Shown: positions 38,401 to 61,418, counted from the first letter of the stretch. The stretch is DNA of 64,000 bases from a virus (IMGVR_UViG_3300006750_000004:1-64000), one strand, 5' to 3'. A program made the numbers and translations. The notes: generated by a model from the sequence alone, not told the origin.

Positions 38401-39033
38401 TTAAGCCTTCAAGTATTCATAGCCTGGCCAATCACGCACATCTTGTAATAAGATCTTTATTTTATTGTGCTCAATAGTCTCTCTAGTATATCCAACATTC
38501 CAATCAGGACCGATTTCGGGATCTGGATAAAGATTTAGGCCATCAATATCGACTTCAAGCATAGAACAATTCCCGCACATACAAGGATGGTGTGGACTAC
38601 CCACAGCACTAGGCATATGAGGATCTATAAAGTGACCGAGAAGATTATTAACAGCTTGTTTATCTAAAAACAAATAAATGCGGCCTTTTTCATTGGGTCT
38701 CAGACCTTTGGTTTTGATAGATGATAAATTTTCGGTTGGTGTGATATGGAATGCAAAACCGGTTGTTTGGAATGATTTAGTATCAGTAATCACAATTCGT
38801 AATGAATAATACTTCTTGGGTCCGCCAGAATGATATGGATTTGTTAACTCTTCCGATCCGATTAAATCCCAACCAATTTTGGTTAATTCTTGGCCCAATG
38901 CCTTCGTAGGGGGCGACTCAGAATTAACCCATATGTGGTCATCAAATGAACCCTTGATAAGAACTTTACCAAGATGTCTCTTGATAATTTCTAAAGCATC
39001 ATTCTTAGATTCACAAATACTTCGTAGTTTCAT
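38401..39033 (-). CDS. Possible ADP-ribosyltransferase-fold protein with 'MKLRSICES' leader
   Basis: 210 residues. The middle 'AFHITPTENLSSIKTKGLRPNEKGRIYLFLDKQAV' resembles the NAD-binding start of the Tpt1/DarT-like ADP-ribosyltransferase group (His, short loop, IYLF strand). A 'CMCGNC' cluster follows at about 150. The N-terminus 'MKLRSICES' matches the leader of the 53-58 kb protein family. Such a phage enzyme could modify host proteins after injection, but the enzyme assignment is tentative. Confidence 0.4.
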   Translation of the reverse strand: MKLRSICESKNDALEIIKRHLGKVLIKGSFDDHIWVNSESPPTKALGQELTKIGWDLIGSEELTNPYHSGGPKKYYSLRIVITDTKSFQTTGFAFHITPTENLSSIKTKGLRPNEKGRIYLFLDKQAVNNLLGHFIDPHMPSAVGSPHHPCMCGNCSMLEVDIDGLNLYPDPEIGPDWNVGYTRETIEHNKIKILLQDVRDWPGYEYLKA

Positions 39034-50098: not shown

Positions 50099-50329
50099 AT
50101 GATCCAAAATATCATCAAACAGTTCGGGCGAGGTGAAATCACTCTCACAGAAATGTGGAAACAAATCGACAATATATTAGACATTCATAATTATCATAAG
50201 ACCTTTACAATTTCTTCTGAATTAGATGGTTCATTCACCAGAAGAAATCGCACACTAATTAGTGACACCCATATGGCATTGGCTCCTGATGACATGCCTG
50301 ACATGCCTGACATTTCTGCACAGACGTGA
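50099..50329 (+). CDS. Small hypothetical protein
   Basis: 76 residues with a helical N-terminus ('IIKQFGRGEITLTEMWKQIDNIL') and an Asp/Pro/Met-rich tail ('APDDMPDMPDIS'). No recognised family. A GGGG element is near the ATG. It sits between the gp47-like gene and the next ORF. Confidence 0.4.
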   Translation: MIQNIIKQFGRGEITLTEMWKQIDNILDIHNYHKTFTISSELDGSFTRRNRTLISDTHMALAPDDMPDMPDISAQT

Positions 50330-50348
50330 TCAGAGCCGAGACTTAAAC

Positions 50349-51632
50349 ATGAATTACTTTGAACTTGAATTATCCCGTGTGCTTGGGGAAGCATTACAAG
50401 ATAGTGGTCTGGTTGCACAAAAACTTGGCATAGATCTAGAAGTATTGCAACAGATCTTGGATAAAACGGACCCAACTGCGCACGGCAAGTATGCACAATT
50501 TATTGCTAAGTTGATGCTGCGAAAGCTTGTAAATCTTCCAAAAGATCGTGAACGAGTGTACCAAGCTCTAAGTGCGTTCGATAAGTTTAAAAAACACATT
50601 AAGCTCAAGGATATCAATCAATACAAATCTCTAGAAGATCTTGAAAAAACAGTTGACCCTTTCTTAGCAAAGATCTCTAACCGAAAAGGTGGTTCTGGAG
50701 ATATCTTTGGGCTTTCTGGAGTGACCCAAATCGATCGAGAAGGTGATTTCAGTCTGACAAAAGTTAGTAACCGCCGGTCACTAGAAGAAATTTCGAAAAA
50801 CACTAAATGGTGCACAAAAGCAAAGCTTGGCAAAGCTTTGACGTATCTCAAGACGTATAATCGCCTCTATCATGTTTTTTATAAAAACAAACCTGTCTTG
50901 ATGCTTACTCCGGACCTCTCCCAAATCATGGATCATGATAATGAGCCATATAATTTCGAAGATAAGAGAGTAAATCGGCTTATTTCATTTCTCAAGCCTT
51001 CCTGGTTACCAGAGGGGGTAGGTGAATATGCGACGTATTCTGTCTTTGCTGATGTAAGTCCTGAATTCATTCAGCAATATATTGTACTAGAGATACAGGA
51101 CGAGGTCGCGAATAGCATCAAGCGGTTCAATCAGGCACAGGAAAGGATGACCCCCGGCCCAGCGAGCCGTGAATCGCATGTGGGGCTACCTGTTGGGCCG
51201 AGGTGGAAAAGGACAATGCAATGGTCTGACTCGCATGATCGCATAGTGGAATCTTGTACTCCGAAAGCCAAGCATATAATATATAAAAAATTCAAATTTT
51301 TTGCGTACATGAGTACGGATGGCCAGCCAGCCCACGTCAATGGCTGGAGAAGCCCATCACGCCCGGTGGATGTGGCGGTTGGACTCAATCGATTCTACAT
51401 TCTCAATTATGCTTCTATGCCTCTTTATAAAGCACTCGTAGAAGCTGGTGTCCCTAATGATGAATTGCCGCGTTTTCGGAATAGGGCTCGGTCGGCTTGG
51501 AAACCTTATAAAGCACTCGTAGAAGCTGGTGTCCCTAATGATGAATTGCCGCGTTTAGAAGAGTCTAACTTTAGTCTTTCCGGAGAGCGCTGGTCGCTCG
51601 TGAATGCGCGCCCGCGCGCGCGCGGCTACTGA
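50349..51632 (+). CDS. Hypothetical protein with 'TKWCT' motif and duplicated C-terminal segment
   Basis: 427 residues. A long helical N-terminal part is followed by 'NTKWCTKAKLGKALTYLKTY...VFYKNKPVLML', a pattern I have seen in several phage proteins of unknown function. The C-terminal part contains 'YKALVEAGVPNDELPR' twice, encoded by two identical 51-bp blocks 81 bases apart. It ends in an Arg/Ala run from a nearly pure CG tract. I cannot assign a function. Confidence 0.55.
   Translation: MNYFELELSRVLGEALQDSGLVAQKLGIDLEVLQQILDKTDPTAHGKYAQFIAKLMLRKLVNLPKDRERVYQALSAFDKFKKHIKLKDINQYKSLEDLEKTVDPFLAKISNRKGGSGDIFGLSGVTQIDREGDFSLTKVSNRRSLEEISKNTKWCTKAKLGKALTYLKTYNRLYHVFYKNKPVLMLTPDLSQIMDHDNEPYNFEDKRVNRLISFLKPSWLPEGVGEYATYSVFADVSPEFIQQYIVLEIQDEVANSIKRFNQAQERMTPGPASRESHVGLPVGPRWKRTMQWSDSHDRIVESCTPKAKHIIYKKFKFFAYMSTDGQPAHVNGWRSPSRPVDVAVGLNRFYILNYASMPLYKALVEAGVPNDELPRFRNRARSAWKPYKALVEAGVPNDELPRLEESNFSLSGERWSLVNARPRARGY
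51425..51556 (+). repeat. Two identical 51-bp repeats, 81 bases apart
   Basis: 51425-51475 and 51506-51556 are identical and in frame within the 50349-51632 gene, so the protein carries the same 17 residues twice. The identity at DNA level implies a recent duplication. Confidence 0.95.
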
Positions 51633-53190: not shown

Positions 53191-53616
53191 TCAATATGCG
53201 ATTTCCTGGAATCCCTGCCATTGTTGCCAGCTAATAACATTCCAATTATCGCCATAATTGATTAGCCAAGATACACCATATGTGTCAGTTACCCAAATCA
53301 CAAATAGATCGTTAGTGAAATTTGGATCGCGTCCTGGAGTTATAACACGTCCAACTGGGAGGGTGGCGAAGTAACTGGGTACGACTGGAACGTCCTGATC
53401 CAACTCACCAAATCGACGACCATCAGGAAGTCCTTCTAGGATCCCATGTTTGTCGACAATATTGATCACGCCATTATTCTCTATTGCTTTGATACCCTCT
53501 TGATGGAAATAAGCAGCTATTTGTTCGGCTTCTTGTCGATTAGAACCATCATCGAATTGGTCGTTGTCTTCGAGACCGTCGTAGTCGGATGATTCGGTGA
53601 TATATTTAAGTTTCAT
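53191..53616 (-). CDS. YxGLEDxDxF-family protein
   Basis: 141 residues. It starts 'MKLKYITESSDYDGLEDNDQF', a leader plus the family motif, then a beta-rich domain ('FVIWVTDTYGVSWLINYGDNWN') without cysteines. The leader ends in an ITE/S site of the (I/L)xE type. Function unknown; see the family repeat entry. Confidence 0.6.
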   Translation of the reverse strand: MKLKYITESSDYDGLEDNDQFDDGSNRQEAEQIAAYFHQEGIKAIENNGVINIVDKHGILEGLPDGRRFGELDQDVPVVPSYFATLPVGRVITPGRDPNFTNDLFVIWVTDTYGVSWLINYGDNWNVISWQQWQGFQEIAY

Positions 53617-54422
53617 TAGTACTCGGCTGCACTGAAGATGTCTAATATTGCTTGGATGTCTTCTTCTTTGAGTTCTGGGCCGTTCCAGTCGTACCCAGTT
53701 ACTTCGTCACCCTGAATGGCCAGCCAGCCCACGTCAAGGCGGTCGTAGTAGAGAGTTAATCTACCTATGAATGGTTTGAAAGTTGGGTCAGGACTTCCTG
53801 CTTCTTGAGTAGCCAATAATTCAGCTTTTCTGGCTGGGTCTATATCCACGGGCTCGGGGTCTGCCGCATCACCGCCAGCTAGGGCATCGCCAGCTACGCG
53901 CGCGCGAATATTATCCACCATTGTGGTGCCGGGTTGTCCGGCTACTTGTATTTCAATAATCCAGGATCGTGATCCTTCTTCATTCTGGTCTTCTGGAACT
54001 GATGTTACATCTATTTGAACCCACCTGTCCATCATGTCGACAAGATGGAGACCCTCTTCACCGTGTGGGTCGTAGAATCTGTCGTTGTCTTCGAGACCGT
54101 CGTAGTCGGATGATTCGGTGAGCTTCGGACGCTTACGGAGATCCGAAGGGAACGCTGATTTTATACATTTTTTACATTGTCCAGATGACCCGAAACTCGG
54201 CAGTTCGCCACAAAATCCACAAAACAGATAATCACATTCAGTACAAGAAGCAAGGGATCGTTCATAACCACTCACATCACAATAATCACAATTTTCCATT
54301 GTATCTTGATCATCGTCATCTGGTTCCTCGATGAATTCGTCGGCGTCTTCGAGGCCGTCATAATCAGATTCGTCCGGATCTTCCGAAATCATTCTGGCTA
54401 TTTTTTTAGGGTCAATTTTCAT
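53616..54422 (-). CDS. YxGLEDxDxF-family protein with zinc finger
   Basis: 268 residues from the ATG at 54422. It starts 'MKIDPKKIARMISEDP' and the motif 'YDGLEDADEF', followed by an eight-cysteine zinc-binding block (about 45-85), a second 'TESSDYDGLEDNDRF' motif (no Met before it) and a C-terminal mixed domain. It looks like two family modules fused. The 47 bases encoding the leader are identical in two other genes. Confidence 0.7.
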   Translation of the reverse strand: MKIDPKKIARMISEDPDESDYDGLEDADEFIEEPDDDDQDTMENCDYCDVSGYERSLASCTECDYLFCGFCGELPSFGSSGQCKKCIKSAFPSDLRKRPKLTESSDYDGLEDNDRFYDPHGEEGLHLVDMMDRWVQIDVTSVPEDQNEEGSRSWIIEIQVAGQPGTTMVDNIRARVAGDALAGGDAADPEPVDIDPARKAELLATQEAGSPDPTFKPFIGRLTLYYDRLDVGWLAIQGDEVTGYDWNGPELKEEDIQAILDIFSAAEY

Positions 54423-54459
54423 ATCCGTCTCGTCAGTAAGCTTCAATGTTCTTGGCGTA

Positions 54460-55953
54460 CTATCGCCCGTCATCTCGTCGTCGCCAATCGAGTCGCTCTG
54501 CCTCCTCACAATTCGGACATCGCTCGCAGAAGGGACCGTGGATACAAGAACAAGAGAGAGGTAAGGCCGTAGTGCACCATTGACAATTCCAAAAATCACT
54601 TTGTTCTTGTTTTTCTACACATACATCGCACCACATTGTGTTGCAGGAGGCGCAATAAACACCGTGATTAATTATTGCAAGGGGGGAATCCCCCGTAGAT
54701 TCATCTTCTACTGGTGTGCCACACGTCGTGCATGGTGCACTATACCCTTCCGCATCGCTAAACTCATCGGCATCTTCAAGCCCCGCATATTCGCCAGACT
54801 CTCTAATATTGCTCTCGCGGGCGAAGTCTTCATCAGCTATGCAGTCTTGGCAGATATCAAGCGGGGATATTCCCCGCCATCCTGCATGTGAAGTACAATC
54901 GTCACACATTGATTGATTGCATTTGTAGCAATGTGTGACACGATCCCCTTCTTGCCAGGCAGTTCCACACCAACAAAAAGAATTATCTTGAAATTCATCG
55001 GCATCTTCAAGCCCGGCATATTCATTGGCATCTTCATTCACATTTTCAGGTCCAAGAGAACCATGTCCTTGGCAGTAGTCAGTCCGCTCCCCACAATCCG
55101 GACACGTCTCGCAGTATTCCGCATCGGGATCGCAAAATTCGTCGGCGTCCTCGAGTCCCTCGTATGATTCGTTTACGTTGCGTTTATTGGCGGAAGAGAT
55201 CCATTGTTGACGATTTGAGCGTCTAAAGAATCCTAATGGCCCTTCCCGTCCGTTGAATTCTTCCACATCCTGGTCGTTGGCGACCAGAAGTGCGCCGAGG
55301 TTCTGAATGAATTCTTCACTGTCCAAGTACTCTTTACATGATCGACAATATTGATCGTCCTGCTCTAGATCGTTAGTTCCACACACGCCGCAAACATTTG
55401 GTTCGCCGAATTCGTCGGCGTCCTCGAGTCCGGCATAGTCGGATTCGGTAATATGCTTGAGTTTCATTGGAGACCGACGCGCCTCGGACAACTCGCCGTC
55501 GTTCCAGAGATCCATATCTGGCGGCACAGTTTCCTTATAGTGAGCGAAAGCAATATCTTGGATGGCATCTCTTAGGATAGAGGGCTTTGATCCCAATTGG
55601 GGATTTTGGTTTTGGAACCATTGTTCATATTTGGGGTATTCGGCGAGAATAGCGTCTTTAATGCTATCTAGTTCTGAACACCAGCGACATTTGTCAAGGT
55701 CGTAGTCATTTCCGACAGCCCAAATTGGTGGGCCTGTACGAACTGGCTTTTCGAATGCTTCCGATCTGACGAAGATTATTACACTGTCAATATCCCTACT
55801 TTCTTGTTCGTACATGGTGTGAGCAGTGAAGAGATATGGTCCTACTTTCACTGGGCCATAATTATCTTGTTGCCATTCAGCTACGTCGTCAGTGAATTCG
55901 TCGGCGTCTTCGAGGCCGTCGTAGTCGGATTCGGTGATGTGGCGAAGTTTCAT
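54460..55953 (-). CDS. Multi-module YxGLEDxDxF protein with several zinc fingers
   Basis: 497 residues containing five copies of the motif. The first module starts 'MKLRHITESDYDGLEDADEF'; near residue 164 a second full leader follows internally ('PMKLKHITESDYAGLEDADEF'), as if a stop was lost between two genes. Later modules have zinc-finger type cysteines (e.g. CGVCG, CPDCG, CWCG, CYKCNQ, CDDC, CASCN, CDVC, CERCPNCEE). The variable domains between motifs differ from each other. Function unknown. Confidence 0.75.
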   Translation of the reverse strand: MKLRHITESDYDGLEDADEFTDDVAEWQQDNYGPVKVGPYLFTAHTMYEQESRDIDSVIIFVRSEAFEKPVRTGPPIWAVGNDYDLDKCRWCSELDSIKDAILAEYPKYEQWFQNQNPQLGSKPSILRDAIQDIAFAHYKETVPPDMDLWNDGELSEARRSPMKLKHITESDYAGLEDADEFGEPNVCGVCGTNDLEQDDQYCRSCKEYLDSEEFIQNLGALLVANDQDVEEFNGREGPLGFFRRSNRQQWISSANKRNVNESYEGLEDADEFCDPDAEYCETCPDCGERTDYCQGHGSLGPENVNEDANEYAGLEDADEFQDNSFCWCGTAWQEGDRVTHCYKCNQSMCDDCTSHAGWRGISPLDICQDCIADEDFARESNIRESGEYAGLEDADEFSDAEGYSAPCTTCGTPVEDESTGDSPLAIINHGVYCASCNTMWCDVCVEKQEQSDFWNCQWCTTALPLSCSCIHGPFCERCPNCEEAERLDWRRRDDGR

Positions 55954-56009
55954 TGATGCTCCAGAATTTCATTGTATCTTCGCCCAGATGGTGCCGGTAT
56001 TTAACGAGT

Positions 56010-56280
56010 GACGGTAGCCCAACTGCCGTCGACATAGTGGTGACGTTTACCACGAATGATTTCTGCTAATCTTGATCGGTTGGAGCATCGGTTCTTATGG
56101 TGTTCTTGTGGCTTCCTTCGGGGAGTCCGGGTCTCGACAAAGTCGGGTCACCTGCTTCCAACCACCTTACAGGACGTAAGGCTTAAAAGAAACACTGGGC
56201 CTATCTGATAATGATTATCGGCTGCCCGAGATTAAGATGACCGCAGGCTTGGTGAGAACATTGTTGGGGTTACCCAGTGT
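56010..56280 (+). ncRNA. Candidate structured RNA
   Basis: Six helices can be drawn: GACGGTA/TGCCGTC (56010-56030, one G-T), GGTTGGAGCA with TGCTTCCAACC (56078-56087, 56153-56163), CTTCC-TTCG-GGGAG with a C(UUCG)G tetraloop (56112-56125), CGAC-AAA-GTCG (56135-56145), CCTTAC-AGGAC-GTAAGG (56065 block: 56165-56181) and ACACTGGG with CCCAGTGT (56192-56199, 56273-56280). The UUCG loop and closed outer stems favour a folded RNA. It is not a canonical tRNA. Strand chosen because the UUCG loop reads on plus. Confidence 0.45.
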
Positions 56281-56291
56281 ACCAGCAGACA

Positions 56292-56324
56292 GATTTGAGC
56301 GTCTAAAGAATCCTAATGGCCCTT
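56292..56324. repeat. 33-bp direct repeat copy
   Basis: Identical to 55212-55244, which lies inside the five-module gene. The copies are 1080 bases apart in the same orientation and bracket the end of that gene and the structured gap, so this copy may mark an old duplication or recombination junction. Confidence 0.9.
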
Positions 56325-56644
56325 GTGCAATTATTCAAGATAGTCCGAAGCTCAAGCGTAAAGTCTGTAAGCATTGGCAGTTGTAATATTTCATCAAGTA
56401 ACTCGACGTCCTTGAGAATGCCGAACCTGATAGAGCATTCGGACTCCCTGGCGGGAGTTGATGACGGCAAGGATATGGACCAGGGGTCGACCAGCACAAT
56501 TCTCCCCAAATCGATTTTAGTGTTGGAGCTTTCCTGAAATCTGAGAGCGGCAAGTCCGCTAACCCGCTTAATTTGTCAGAGACTAAATGAAAGTTTTTGG
56601 CGGTTAGGACGGGGGGAAACGATGTCTATCTATAATACTTTCAA

Positions 56645-56791
56645 ATGACTAAAATCCAGAAATTGGAAGCCCCTGACTTTCTAATAGCTCTAAAGCTCAC
56701 ACTATTAATATCAGACCACGCTGGGGCAATCGCTGACACGTTGTTTTTATTGGACAAAGCTGGGCAATGTGCAGTCTATCGAAGGGACTAG
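56645..56791 (+). CDS. Possible 48-residue ORF
   Basis: An ATG at 56645 opens 48 codons with a protein-like pattern ('FLIALKLTLLISDHAGAIADTLFLLDKAGQ') and ends on TAG overlapping the convergent gene by 4 bases. A preceding 8-codon frame (from the ATG at about 56622, after GGGGGG) ends in ATGA on this start, which could couple translation. No family. Confidence 0.35.
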   Translation: MTKIQKLEAPDFLIALKLTLLISDHAGAIADTLFLLDKAGQCAVYRRD

Positions 56792-57081
56792 CCATTATGA
56801 TTCTGCTCGATCCTCGCCAAATCATCCTTGAAGTACTGCTGGCAGGAATGGCAGACAATCAGTTGGCCAGATGGATCTTTTAGATTGAAATTGCTGATAC
56901 AATCGCTGCAGAAGTATGCATTTCGGCATCCATCACAACGGAACAACATATGTATTCCGAGTCCGCATGCGTCACATGTTTCCTTATCAACGAACTTGTC
57001 ATCGTCTTCGAGGCCGTCATAATCAGATTCGTCCGGATCTTCCGAAATCATTCTGGCTATTTTTTTAGGGTCAATTTTCAT
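56788..57081 (-). CDS. Single-module YxGLEDxDxF zinc-finger protein
   Basis: 97 residues: the leader 'MKIDPKKIARMISEDP', then 'ESDYDGLEDDDKF', then 'CDACGLGIHMLFRCDGCRNAYFCSDCI...CHSCQQ', an eight-cysteine paired zinc-binding pattern. It is the simplest example of the leader-motif-zinc plan. Overlaps the next family gene by 11 bases. Confidence 0.75.
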   Translation of the reverse strand: MKIDPKKIARMISEDPDESDYDGLEDDDKFVDKETCDACGLGIHMLFRCDGCRNAYFCSDCISNFNLKDPSGQLIVCHSCQQYFKDDLARIEQNHNG

Positions 57082-57550
57082 GAATTATACGCCTATTTAT
57101 CGGAGGTTCGCCGGGGAGCCAACCATGATCGTCGGCATACCAAGCACGACCACCTGCCCCGTTTTTGGTCACAATGGCCCATTCATTTTCATTATCGATT
57201 TCTATTTCATAAGTATTATCGATCCCCCAATGTTCGTTTTTAGGATTATCTATTGTTGTTATATAACTATCTGGTTCTGACACCTCGTCTTCGTCATCTC
57301 CAGAAGGGAAATCAGCATCTATATATAATACTCCAAGCTTACCATGGCCCGCTGATACATATCCAGCTTCAACATTATAATGATTGAGAAAGTCTGCAAA
57401 GTTACCATTTTCATCCCCAAACTCATCGGCATCTTCAAGCCCCGCATATTCGTCATCTTGTTTGTTAGATATGTATTCATCGGAGCGATCACTAGGAATA
57501 TTCGGATCTTCCGAAATCATTCTGGCTATTTTTTTAGGGTCAATTTTCAT
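57071..57550 (-). CDS. YxGLEDxDxF-family protein
   Basis: 159 residues from the ATG at 57550. Leader 'MKIDPKKIARMISEDP' and motif 'DEYAGLEDADEFGDEN' are followed by an acidic beta-rich domain ('GVLYIDADFPSGDDEDEVS', 'YEIEIDNENEWAIVTKNG') without cysteines. Function unknown. Confidence 0.65.
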   Translation of the reverse strand: MKIDPKKIARMISEDPNIPSDRSDEYISNKQDDEYAGLEDADEFGDENGNFADFLNHYNVEAGYVSAGHGKLGVLYIDADFPSGDDEDEVSEPDSYITTIDNPKNEHWGIDNTYEIEIDNENEWAIVTKNGAGGRAWYADDHGWLPGEPPINRRIIHEN

Positions 57551-57639
57551 TTGCAAGCCTTATAATATAGAACTTTTTGATCACCAAGGGCCTGCTTCTC
57601 TAGACCATCTTTCCCAGGTACCCTCTTCTATTTCGTATT

Positions 57640-58143
57640 TCACACACGGTTTGTGCTGGCGGCAAGTTGTGCTGCGACGATTCGTGCTGCAATAATATTG
57701 GCAGCTACTGTGGGTTTGGTTCTGAGTGATGCTTGTGCTTGGGAGGTGAAATTAGCGACTATATTATCACCAATTTGTTGGAATTTATCGATTCCGGCTA
57801 GTCCATTATCAGCTCCGGCTGGAGAGCCATCCCGAAGTCGATTCCCGCCGATTCCATATGCTTGGCATGATTTAGCTAATTCATGTTCGATTAATTTTTC
57901 TAGTTTGATTGTCATTTCTTCTGGTGATTTGTTGATTATCCATTCGCGTAGTGGTCGGTCTTCGATACAATCGGTGCATACTTCTTCTGGTTCATGTTGC
58001 CGATGGGAGTATCGCCATCGTATTATATCTGCTGCATTAGATCCTATTCCGCAATCGACACATCCATCCGAGAATTGGTCATCGTCCTCGAGACCATAGT
58101 AGTCGGATTCTTGGTCGTTTTCGATTATGTGTCGTAGTTTCAT
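57640..58143 (-). CDS. YxGLEDxDxF-family protein with Ala-rich C-terminus
   Basis: 167 residues. 'MKLRHIIENDQESDYYGLEDDDQF' is the leader and motif, 'CVDCGIG...EVCTDCIED' a four-cysteine zinc pair, then a helical part and an Ala/Val-rich tail ('AANIIAARIVAAQLAAS') that could insert in a membrane or pack as a helix. It is the upstream-most member of the block. Confidence 0.65.
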   Translation of the reverse strand: MKLRHIIENDQESDYYGLEDDDQFSDGCVDCGIGSNAADIIRWRYSHRQHEPEEVCTDCIEDRPLREWIINKSPEEMTIKLEKLIEHELAKSCQAYGIGGNRLRDGSPAGADNGLAGIDKFQQIGDNIVANFTSQAQASLRTKPTVAANIIAARIVAAQLAASTNRV

Positions 58144-58227: not shown

Positions 58228-59971
58228 GGCAGATAGTTGTGAAACCAAACCATTCCTGCCACGAAAGGGATCTGAAGGGGATGAGGTTTGTGACAAGTAC
58301 GGGAATCGTTGGAAGTATGATCTAGAGAGTAATGGTTGGATTTCTTCTGGCACGATTACTGATACTCCATTAGTCACAGAGAAGATAGATGGATTGATTA
58401 CATCTGATGCTTTTTCCAATCTTCGGAAATTGCAGACGTACGTTGATCTGGATCCGGACCTCAACACCTTTAAGATGCTCCCTGGTAGGGATGCATATTG
58501 GTACTATTTCCGATCCAGCGATAAGCTCTTCCGGTTTAGGCAGGAAGGAGAAGATTGCCTCCGTGTCGAGGTGGATAAGGGGCGGTTTTTTCAAATTTTG
58601 ATGAAGGAGGTGTGCCCCGGTACTAAGGGGCCAAAGGGAGAGAAGGGCGATAAAGGATTGCCGGGTAATGTTGGGACGGCGGAGGTTTGCTTTACTCCGT
58701 CAGCGATTAATGGCGATCAGATGGATTTCGCCATTTTTACCCCGACTCCGTTGGTTGAGAATGGTCCGATATCCCTGCCCGGTGGTGTTGTGCCTAATGT
58801 CTCTGTTCGGTTGTTTGAAGCAACTATCCCGATTGGTGCGACAGCTACGCAACAAGACCAGATGCAAGATCTGGCTATCTTCTTCAACAATCATGATCCA
58901 CGAGACGAGATACTTCCCAAATTCCAGGCTACTAGGGATTTGTTGCGGAAACGCAGTATGGGAATTATTGCTCAGGATAGTTTGTGCCAGATTCCTTTGA
59001 GTCAGGTTGCTGTTTTACCGTCTGGCACTACGTTAGCTGCTGCACCAAGTGTTACGGTTGAGGTGAATCCGGCAAATCCGTCTCAAGTCACTATTAGTGG
59101 TACTATTCCGGTTGATAATGTCCGTACTGCTAATTCGATTCAGTTTGATCCAGAAACGAATATTGCATGCGGTTCTATTATTTTGGAGCCAGGTAATCAA
59201 TGGTCTGACTTGGAAGCTGATGATTGGTGTATCAAGTCTCGTCAGAAAGGGCCGAATGGTCTGAAGGGGGATGCTGGAGAGTGTCGTATCAAGATCGTTG
59301 AGTGTTTGATCGATGATACGAATATTCGTGCTACGTGTCCTATTGTTAATGCGAGACTCGATTGTGATCGTGAGATAATTTATACCTTATGTTCTGATTT
59401 ATTGACAGAAATCTGTGTCGATAAAGTTAGTTTGCTCCCTGAGTCGACGACACTGGCGAATACCAATGCTTTTAAGAGTGTTTTTGCTGCGGCAGAGATG
59501 ACTCTTGAGGAATGTAAGAGAATCAACCGCTACAAAGTGGGATTAGAGGCGGATGAGCTGCCTGAACTTGATTTGTTGCATTGGGACCCACAACCAGGTT
59601 GTTCTACAAGGAGGCATTATGACAGACACAAGTTTAATTGGATTCCGGACACTGACCTTCCAGCATGTGATTCAACCGCTGCTTGGTTTGGGCCTGATAC
59701 GGTTCGATCTGGGAAGTATCCGCATGAGATTGTCATACCTCCAGAACCGCCAGTTGACGAGTGTTGTCAGGATGAATTCTTCTATTGTCCCAATGTTCAG
59801 GAAGCACCATGCACTGATGACCCGCCATCACCGCCATCACCGCCATCGCCACCGTCATCGCCGTTAGCGGCAGCAGCGGGTCGTGCGGAGGTAGGCGATA
59901 TACCGCTTGGTGGGAGACCCTCTTCTCCTCAACTTCAAATGGGTACGCGTAAGTGGCAGGTAAGGACTTAG
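58226..59971 (+). CDS. Collagen-like virion or tail-fibre protein
   Basis: 581 residues from the ATG at 58226 (58220 is also possible). Two short collagen-type Gly-x-y runs, 'GTKGPKGEKGDKGLPG' near residue 133 and 'KGPNGLKGDAGE' near 350, separate beta-rich segments, and a 'PPSPPSPPSPPSS' stretch near the C-terminus resembles a stalk. Phage fibres often use such spacers. Several Cys are scattered through it. It is followed by a glycosyltransferase-like gene, which could act on it; not proven. Confidence 0.75.
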   Translation: MADSCETKPFLPRKGSEGDEVCDKYGNRWKYDLESNGWISSGTITDTPLVTEKIDGLITSDAFSNLRKLQTYVDLDPDLNTFKMLPGRDAYWYYFRSSDKLFRFRQEGEDCLRVEVDKGRFFQILMKEVCPGTKGPKGEKGDKGLPGNVGTAEVCFTPSAINGDQMDFAIFTPTPLVENGPISLPGGVVPNVSVRLFEATIPIGATATQQDQMQDLAIFFNNHDPRDEILPKFQATRDLLRKRSMGIIAQDSLCQIPLSQVAVLPSGTTLAAAPSVTVEVNPANPSQVTISGTIPVDNVRTANSIQFDPETNIACGSIILEPGNQWSDLEADDWCIKSRQKGPNGLKGDAGECRIKIVECLIDDTNIRATCPIVNARLDCDREIIYTLCSDLLTEICVDKVSLLPESTTLANTNAFKSVFAAAEMTLEECKRINRYKVGLEADELPELDLLHWDPQPGCSTRRHYDRHKFNWIPDTDLPACDSTAAWFGPDTVRSGKYPHEIVIPPEPPVDECCQDEFFYCPNVQEAPCTDDPPSPPSPPSPPSSPLAAAAGRAEVGDIPLGGRPSSPQLQMGTRKWQVRT

Positions 59972-59999
59972 CGTACGTAGTTGGAAACATGAGGATTCA

Positions 60000-61418
60000 A
60001 TGGCATCACTTATTGTCTATCTTGCGGATACCAAGTATATTGGTCGTACGTTGGCTGAAATAGCTGACAAAACACCACCGTACTTGCTTGAAGACTTAAT
60101 CATCTGCAATGACACCGGACAAGAATACGAAAATGATCGTGCTCTAGTGATCAATTCAGATAGGATTGGTCGATCTAAATGCTGGAACGAGGCTGCCAAA
60201 CAAGCTACGTCTGACGAATTGGTGTTCCTACGTGATACTACCAAACTGAGTAAGGACTGGTTGCAACCACTTATTTCGAGGGTGAAAGGATCTAACTCCT
60301 TGGTGAGTCCTAGAATTCACACTTTAAATACTGATTTCTGGAGTACCGAGAATGAGTCGTGGCGGCGATTTGGGTGGAGATGGGATCTGTCTTTATATAG
60401 TCGCCAAATGCTTCGGAATTCTGAATCTCCGGCGGTATCTTCTAATTGTATTGCTGTGACAGCTGATTGGTTTGAGCATCTTGGTGGGTTTGATGAGGGG
60501 ATGGTTGCTGGGGTTGGTGAGGATATTGAGCTGTCGATTCGGTCTTGGTTATTCGATGGGAAGGTCGAGGTTGAGGATGATAGTTTGATTGCGGTTCGGT
60601 CTGAGATAGACAATAGTCGGCATACGATTAACAATTTGGCGAGGATTGTTGAGATTTGGATGCCAAAATATTCCAGCCGGTTTTATTCTGCCAGGGATGT
60701 GAAGCCGAGTGAATTGGATACAGGTAAGTTGTCTAATCTGATGATGCTTCAAGATAGACAAATCCACAAGATTTCATGGTTTCTTGAGCGTTGTCAGCCA
60801 GAGCTTGGTGATGTATATGACTTGAGGGGGACGGCGTCTGGCAAGTCTGTGGCGGTTATTGGTCCTGGTGCTTCGGTGGATTTGATTGATCCGTCATTGA
60901 TTTATCGTCATGATTTAATTATCTCTGTAGATTATATGGGGATGGCGTTTGAGTCTGATTATGTGGTTACGGATTTGTCGCATGTGGCGGTTGAGTTGAG
61001 GTCGCGGTATCGGGACAGGCAGTTTGTGTTGCCATTGGCTTTGGCGGATCGGACTTCGGCGGAGTTTATTGCTGCTGGTGAGGTGGTGGTTGATTGCTAT
61101 CAGTTTGAGTTGTCTGGTTTGCGTGGTAGAGTGATTTCTGATTCTCCTCCATTTTGCAATTTTGAGCAGTCGTTGCATTCGGCCGTGAATTTTGCTTTGT
61201 TTTTGAACCCTAGGACAATTTCATTATTCGGGTGTGATAATAAAATTGTGGGGGATAGGAGTCATTCGGCGAAGATAGAATATTATGATGATGGTAGGTT
61301 GTGGCCGGATTCTGATGCTACTCGGCGGAAGTTTGCGTATTCCGAGTTTGGTATCGGCCAGCTTGGGAACCTTGCTTATTCTTTGGGTATTCCACTAATC
61401 CGGATGAATCATACATAA
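60000..61418 (+). CDS. GalNAc-transferase-like GT2 domain fused to a DUF115-like domain
   Basis: 472 residues. The N-terminal part (about 1-240) has 'VFLRDTTKLSKDWLQPLISRV' and 'GGFDEGMVAGVGEDIELSIRSWLFDGKVE', like the catalytic and Gal/GalNAc motif of polypeptide GalNAc transferases. The C-terminal part (about 280-470) has 'KSVAVIGPGASVDLIDPSL', 'DLIISVDYMGMAFESDYVVTDLS' and 'HSAVNFALFLNPRTISLFGCDNK', a DUF115-like core related to the protein at 39037. It follows the collagen-like gene, so virion-protein glycosylation is a reasonable guess. Confidence 0.7.
   Translation: MASLIVYLADTKYIGRTLAEIADKTPPYLLEDLIICNDTGQEYENDRALVINSDRIGRSKCWNEAAKQATSDELVFLRDTTKLSKDWLQPLISRVKGSNSLVSPRIHTLNTDFWSTENESWRRFGWRWDLSLYSRQMLRNSESPAVSSNCIAVTADWFEHLGGFDEGMVAGVGEDIELSIRSWLFDGKVEVEDDSLIAVRSEIDNSRHTINNLARIVEIWMPKYSSRFYSARDVKPSELDTGKLSNLMMLQDRQIHKISWFLERCQPELGDVYDLRGTASGKSVAVIGPGASVDLIDPSLIYRHDLIISVDYMGMAFESDYVVTDLSHVAVELRSRYRDRQFVLPLALADRTSAEFIAAGEVVVDCYQFELSGLRGRVISDSPPFCNFEQSLHSAVNFALFLNPRTISLFGCDNKIVGDRSHSAKIEYYDDGRLWPDSDATRRKFAYSEFGIGQLGNLAYSLGIPLIRMNHT

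Follow-up and report, generated by a model that had tools for sequence, protein, structure and literature searches.

What do the six adjacent minus-strand genes at 53191-58143 encode, which share leaders and a short acidic motif and then continue into different domains? We examined them in a window of 64,000 nucleotides (the whole stretch of viral DNA presented here), in the record to which it belongs and in other contigs, all of which are metagenomic fragments with inferred gene starts. The first-pass annotation had described six genes, 11 copies of the motif YxGLEDxDxF and shared leaders, and our ORF and motif counts bear this out, the copies being split 1+2+5+1+1+1 along the cluster. The whole record holds 14 copies, three of them in a gene at 82746-83738, outside the window, against 0.0 expected from residue shuffles of the record's ORFs, and the reversed pattern has no matches. 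The same residues are encoded by differing synonymous codons across the motif copies, which is supportive only, as the search pattern fixes some positions. The six proteins are uniformly acidic, with net charges from -9 to -69, and CxxC pairs occur in four. A degenerate motif-pattern scan of IMG/VR returned about a dozen contigs; two relatives are ~146 kb long, G001, which is collinear with the record, and G002, which is more distant. Pattern hits in L019, L022, and L037 look like chance.

Four of the genes have a single module. The one at 57640-58143 begins with the leader MKLRHIIE|N (the bar marks the cleavage-like site), contains Cys pairs and a motif at 58072-58101, and has an ortholog in G001 (57428-57856). 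The gene at 57071-57550 has the leader MKIDPKKIARMISE|D, a motif at 57419-57448, and no Cys; by eye, its product resembles a G017 protein (L142 2867-3298) with the leader MNVDPKQIAKMITE|D and the variant motif YEDLEDADEF. The leader MKIDPKKIARMISE|D also heads the gene at 56788-57081, which combines a motif (56992-57021) with an eight-Cys MYND/FYVE-like zinc finger (PF01753, E 7.5e-5), while the gene at 53191-53616 carries the leader MKLKYITE|S and a motif at 53554-53583. The five-module gene at 54460-55953 starts with MKLRHITE|S and has motifs at 55894, 55408, 55135, 54991, and 54760, internal sites HITE|S, NVNE|S, NVNE|D, and NIRE|S, each ahead of a motif, and four zinc-finger modules. The two-module gene at 53616-54422 has the leader MKIDPKKIARMISE|D, the internal site KLTE|S, and motifs at 54333 and 54075; its frame is open to 54599, with an internal ATG at 54422, where the shared leader begins and the gene probably starts. 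Two adjacent motif genes also share a 36-nt imperfect inverted repeat (53360-53395 and 53678-53713; 34/36), as from a template switch.

Leaders Ending in a Prohead Protease-Like Site

Two leader types occur in the cluster, MKL[RK]xI[TI]E and MKIDPKKIARMISEDP, the second encoded by 48 nt of identical DNA in three genes. More generally, we distinguish class A, MKLRxIxE|[SN], and class B, M..xIA[KR][LM]I[ST]E|DP. Leaders such as MKLRHITE|S and MKIDPKKIARMISE|D end in [IL]xE, the site of the T4 gp21 prohead protease, followed by S, N, or D, and they resemble the T4 capsid-targeting sequence, 10 residues that suffice to send cargo into the head. In T4, gp21 cleaves after L/I-x-E, and the internal proteins are packed by means of a removable 10-residue leader (PMC9026906). 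Of the starts that fit M[KR][LIMV]..[IVL].x, 24 have Glu as residue 8, and no other residue occurs there more than three times, across unrelated cargo. Conservation of the class-B leaders is partly forced by the search pattern, and only the class-A statistics count as evidence.

We consider it likely that the cluster genes encode internal head proteins of the T4 type, which would be packaged, cut, and probably injected. A short propeptide of either class would direct the protein into the prohead core, where the gp21-like prohead protease of the phage would then remove it after Glu. At the N-terminus of each mature module so released would stand the acidic tag YxGLEDxDxF; behind it would come the domain particular to that module, be it a zinc finger, protease-like, or of another kind. 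The module would remain in the head, probably to be injected with the DNA and to act on the host or its defenses. We infer packaging, cleavage, injection, and target from the sequences. Among the roles suggested in the first-pass annotation, that of packaged host-takeover proteins gains support from the capsid-targeting-like propeptide with its gp21-type site, the packaging itself being predicted, and that of a scaffold linking partners by way of the acidic motif found none.

Leader and motif had also been regarded as one constant head. They are indeed shared, yet not as a fixed unit: a class A leader heads motif proteins as well as unrelated motif-less ones at 38401-39033 (minus strand, a 210-aa protein with the leader MKLRSICE|S), 69546-70007, and 82470-82712, and an HD hydrolase and others in G002. 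The motif is not needed for the leader, because leader-only proteins exist, and it is not part of the leader either, since it comes after the cleavage-like site. The tag was probably added later, within one lineage, since a 395-kb phage (G012) has both leader classes and no motif.

The leader could also be a conserved expression cassette only (promoter, start region, and first codons), spread by recombination and with no targeting role. This would account for the 48-nt identical copies and for a AAATATAG[AT][AG]T-like element that directly abuts the ATG in 10 of 37 leader genes vs. 22 of 3948 other ATGs (for example 5' of the leader ATG at G002 30737, G001 129403, G003 29730, and L009 6007). 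Between phages, however, the leaders are kept as protein with varied codons and I-x-E is retained, and they are found again as sites in protein interiors, where a start would serve no purpose, so that we regard a mere expression cassette as very improbable. The AAATATAG-like element may be a promoter from which near-leaderless late transcripts start, or else a special signal for initiation; the T4 late promoter TATAAATA is no general feature upstream of leader genes. Leaders are densely packed in L085 (IMGVR_UViG_3300027917_000033), where a stretch of 6 kb contains seven of class B; one protein there has leaders in tandem, and a leader also precedes a receiver-like domain (LRILILDDDP).

Capsid and Protease Genes in Related Phages

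The record's own 95.7-kb contig, itself a fragment, contains no head genes, and in G001, its nearest long relative, we found capsid fragments only and no protease. The motif-bearing G002, G010, and G011 have a head cassette that encodes gp23 (E 7e-81 or better) together with a gp21/S77 protease (E 9e-20 or better), and the leader-bearing G012, G013, G017, G019, and G021 (class B) also encode both a gp21-like protease and a gp23-like capsid protein. We examined eight full-length gp23 capsid proteins; the cleavage predicted at the border of propeptide and mature domain falls at [IL][LF]E|D in every one of them, in agreement with ITE|D and ITE|S of the leaders. In G010 and G011, a class-B leader protein (93 aa, leader IATLITE|DPD) directly precedes the protease; in G011 (and G010), a motif gene directly precedes a terminase-like gene; and in G001, a motif gene comes after the final piece of the capsid gene. 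The G001 gp23 gene (G001:C1) appears to lie in three pieces (114256-114405, 128532-128633, and 129135-129224) spread over 15 kb, owing to introns, another kind of split, or misassembly.

The cluster proteins might instead be ordinary early takeover or anti-defense proteins that stay outside the head, with leader and motif as a handle for one host factor and the multi-module proteins as multivalent adaptors. Extreme turnover and modularity agree with such a role; the motif would fit the role of a short linear motif for binding, and its repeats would give multivalency. It nevertheless seems unlikely to us, as leaders that retain Glu at the T4-like position also head motif-less proteins, the sites match the lineage's own capsid cleavage site, and some members lie among head and terminase genes.

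Multi-Module Genes as Candidate Polyproteins

Because new [ILVM]xE sites precede the internal motif copies, the products of the multi-module genes have the appearance of polyproteins that are divided into tagged modules. A site [ILVM]xE[SDNAG] lies at most 13 residues upstream in 19 of 24 internal copies, vs. 2.7 in shuffles (p 2e-4; neither the shuffles nor the E-values given here are corrected for relatedness), and the density of strict sites per 100 aa is 7.18 before motifs, 0.54 elsewhere in the same proteins (a 13x difference), and 0.50 in other genes. At the fresh [ILV]xE|[SD] site ahead of each internal tag, the same protease would cut, and because the motif directly follows the cut, each released module would bear one N-terminal copy. 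In several cases a whole leader, Met included, is embedded internally (SPMKLKHITE|S in 54460-55953, EMAVDPNKIAKMITE|D in G017, for example); on the simplest reading, these would be once-separate leader genes that were fused with the cleavage site kept. About one fifth of the internal motifs have no strict upstream site (for example CGSDEEEDEYEGLED, WIEDEYVGLED, and PRLESYEGLED), so some modules may stay joined. Several sites have V at P3, where the T4 consensus is L/I, and the constant 'ES' ahead of the motif could be the start of a more extended motif and not a piece of a protease site.

Multiple [ILV]xE sites, together with the acidic composition, would also be expected of sacrificial prohead core (scaffold) proteins like T4 gp22, gp67, and gp68, which are acidic, cut by gp21, and for the most part lost ahead of DNA packaging. 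In T4, cleavage of the core proteins yields multiple fragments (PMC9026906), and the LITE|DPD-leader protein beside the protease in the head cassette would fit such a function. On the other hand, the sites cluster at module borders and not within domains, the domains are diverse and folded-looking (8-Cys zinc fingers, a full Zn_protease), fast-replaced, and partly unique to one phage, and a gp22-like scaffold candidate gene is already present in the cassette; we thus doubt that the cluster encodes core proteins. We are evenly divided on a fuller version of the preferred reading of injected internal head proteins, an effector polyprotein system in which small effector modules are translated as one chain and loaded by one leader, the capsid-maturation protease frees the effectors, each with the tag at its N-terminus, and this shared tag marks them for head retention or for a common post-injection partner.

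Cargo Domains and Module Exchange

Several distinct effector domains can be present in one polypeptide. In relatives, a PF05618 Zn_protease (1e-33) and an HD phosphohydrolase (phrog 1e-7) are among the cargo domains, together with a weak match to GNAT; the Zn_protease module of one relative is retropepsin-like. Among the window genes, no Pfam domains of the enzymatic, polyvalent type and no embedded releasing peptidase were found. In an AF2 model, leader and motif (residues 1-24) are disordered and are followed by a folded domain, and with the 53191 model as query, Foldseek returned nothing below E 0.6. An ADP-ribosyltransferase fold that we suspected from sequence for 38401-39033 and 69546-70007 was not confirmed by Pfam, PHROGs, PDB sequences, or AF2 (pLDDT 50).

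Between the record (G000) and G001, 73 of 120 ORFs have matches, with 67 orthologs at a median of 71% amino acid identity. The three alignable motif proteins, at 39, 41, and 45%, are among the five lowest of these orthologs, and the remaining motif genes have no full-length ortholog in G001; homologs in other contigs are conserved as protein (39-45% amino acid identity) and not as DNA. The contig G003, ~100% identical in amino acids over record positions 77-95 kb, extends the same phage species and adds four motif genes (15095, 17639, 24723, and 26299); two of its adjacent genes share an identical 133-nt stretch and then have different bodies. The 53191 module recurs as the C-terminal module of G001 59190-60534, with LNE|S in place of the leader. 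This G001 gene, which begins with the Zn_protease domain, sits at the matching place beside the RNA element described below and is otherwise unrelated to the five-module protein of the window. The earlier proposal that domains are shuffled behind a constant head is supported by the same module being standalone or fused and by the extreme divergence. Motif genes number several per phage and vary from phage to phage, so the refuting case named in the first-pass annotation, one fixed gene in relatives, does not apply. Fast turnover and recombination behind a constant leader would fit an arms race.

A direct protein search of IMG/VR with the five-module protein found nothing, and LR756511, a phage of 595 kb whose capsid is the closest in the database, lacks any exact match to the motif. 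Against cultured phages, tblastn gave Gordonia/Nocardia hits only, and these rest on a CxxCGExxDYCQGHG zinc knuckle and not on the motif. The phages of the present group and LR756511 seem to have in common a W-C ('SWC/KWC') protein family, recognized by eye at 50262-51632 in the window, G002 56052-58040, and L072 12688-15918; the member in G002 starts with a leader of class B (MIVVSDIAQMITE|DPD), so it may be a packaged protein as well. The window further contains, at 20-33.6 kb, an apparent sugar-nucleotide/glycan cassette (transketolase-like halves, nucleotidyltransferase-like) with almost no counterpart in the collinear G001.

A Structured RNA Element Inside the Cluster

No gene lies between 55953 and 56788, yet the interval 55960-56616 is no gap: it is occupied by a conserved structured RNA element of ~660 nt on the plus strand, opposite to the cluster genes. 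It is a fixed neighbor and, as far as known, outside the protein system. The RNA is 75% identical to that of G001 over ~670 nt, and the two-sequence consensus fold reaches -193 kcal/mol, compared with -114 +/- 8 after shuffling of the alignment columns and -120 for the opposite strand. A one-domain RNA model gave weak but syntenic matches in G019, where the RNA lies between SbcD-like and collagen-like tail genes as in the window, with no motif gene, and in G017, where it lies between leader genes. The four-sequence fold (-77 vs. -27 +/- 4.6) has double changes in 48 of 96 pairs, and with a fifth member, found by pattern, compensatory changes occur in 48 of 95 pairs. Members elsewhere are located at L063 18560-19211 (minus strand), L138 ~1385-2030, L139 ~1399-2098, and L140 ~1155-1985. 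In four of the five phages, the RNA is in a matching island (SbcD-like gene, leader genes, collagen-like tail gene), and in the fifth it is between two structural-looking genes. With no Rfam match, the element possibly represents a new family of large phage RNAs and offers a lead on such RNAs in its own right. A perfect 33-nt copy shared by the five-module gene (55212-55244) and the RNA element (56292-56324) is a trace of recombination.

Comparison With Known Systems

The statement in the first-pass annotation that no described phage system has this plan was too strong: T4 IPI-III and Alt have a constant, removable leader before diverse cargo. As in these proteins, we find a short Met-Lys leader ending in I-x-E (L/I-x-E), whose removal by a prohead protease is predicted here, a diverse and poorly conserved accessory cargo behind it, and, in relatives, a T4-type capsid and protease. 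The T4 internal proteins are basic. This charge, a trait of IPI-III that does not define the class, is absent from the cluster proteins, and family searches found no sequence similarity to T4 cargo. Acidic cargo, in many cases with zinc fingers, is one difference from the T4 internal proteins and Alt; others are a conserved additional tag behind the predicted cut, the occurrence of two leader types, and modules joined in tandem as candidate polyproteins with internal sites.

If our reading is true, the T4 internal-protein principle would extend to uncultured jumbo phages, and these would be the first effector polyproteins processed by a capsid protease, as far as the literature searched shows. 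The leader with its [IL]xE site would be a signature for finding head-packaged, probably injected proteins directly in metagenomes, and the leaders could serve as new capsid-targeting tags.

The ejection proteins of phiKZ/SPN3US, which gp175/gp245 cut at S/A-x-E, are packaged in the head and matured after Glu by a prohead protease, as would be the case here. In those phages, all identified cleavages except self-cleavage remove N-terminal propeptides (PMC10052503), and no repeated tagged modules are described. The polyvalent proteins of phages and conjugative elements, which their authors liken to polyproteins (Iyer 2017; PMC5512222), are also multi-domain effectors thought to enter the host with the DNA. 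They are, however, large fused enzymes released by embedded peptidases, whereas the modules here are small, mostly without an embedded peptidase, and bordered by sites of the capsid-protease type. Finally, in P1 DarB an N-terminal signal packages an anti-restriction protein (PMC9024508); an N-terminal signal, predicted in our case, is common to both systems, and the shared family of leaders, predicted to be cleavable, and the motif array set the present proteins apart.
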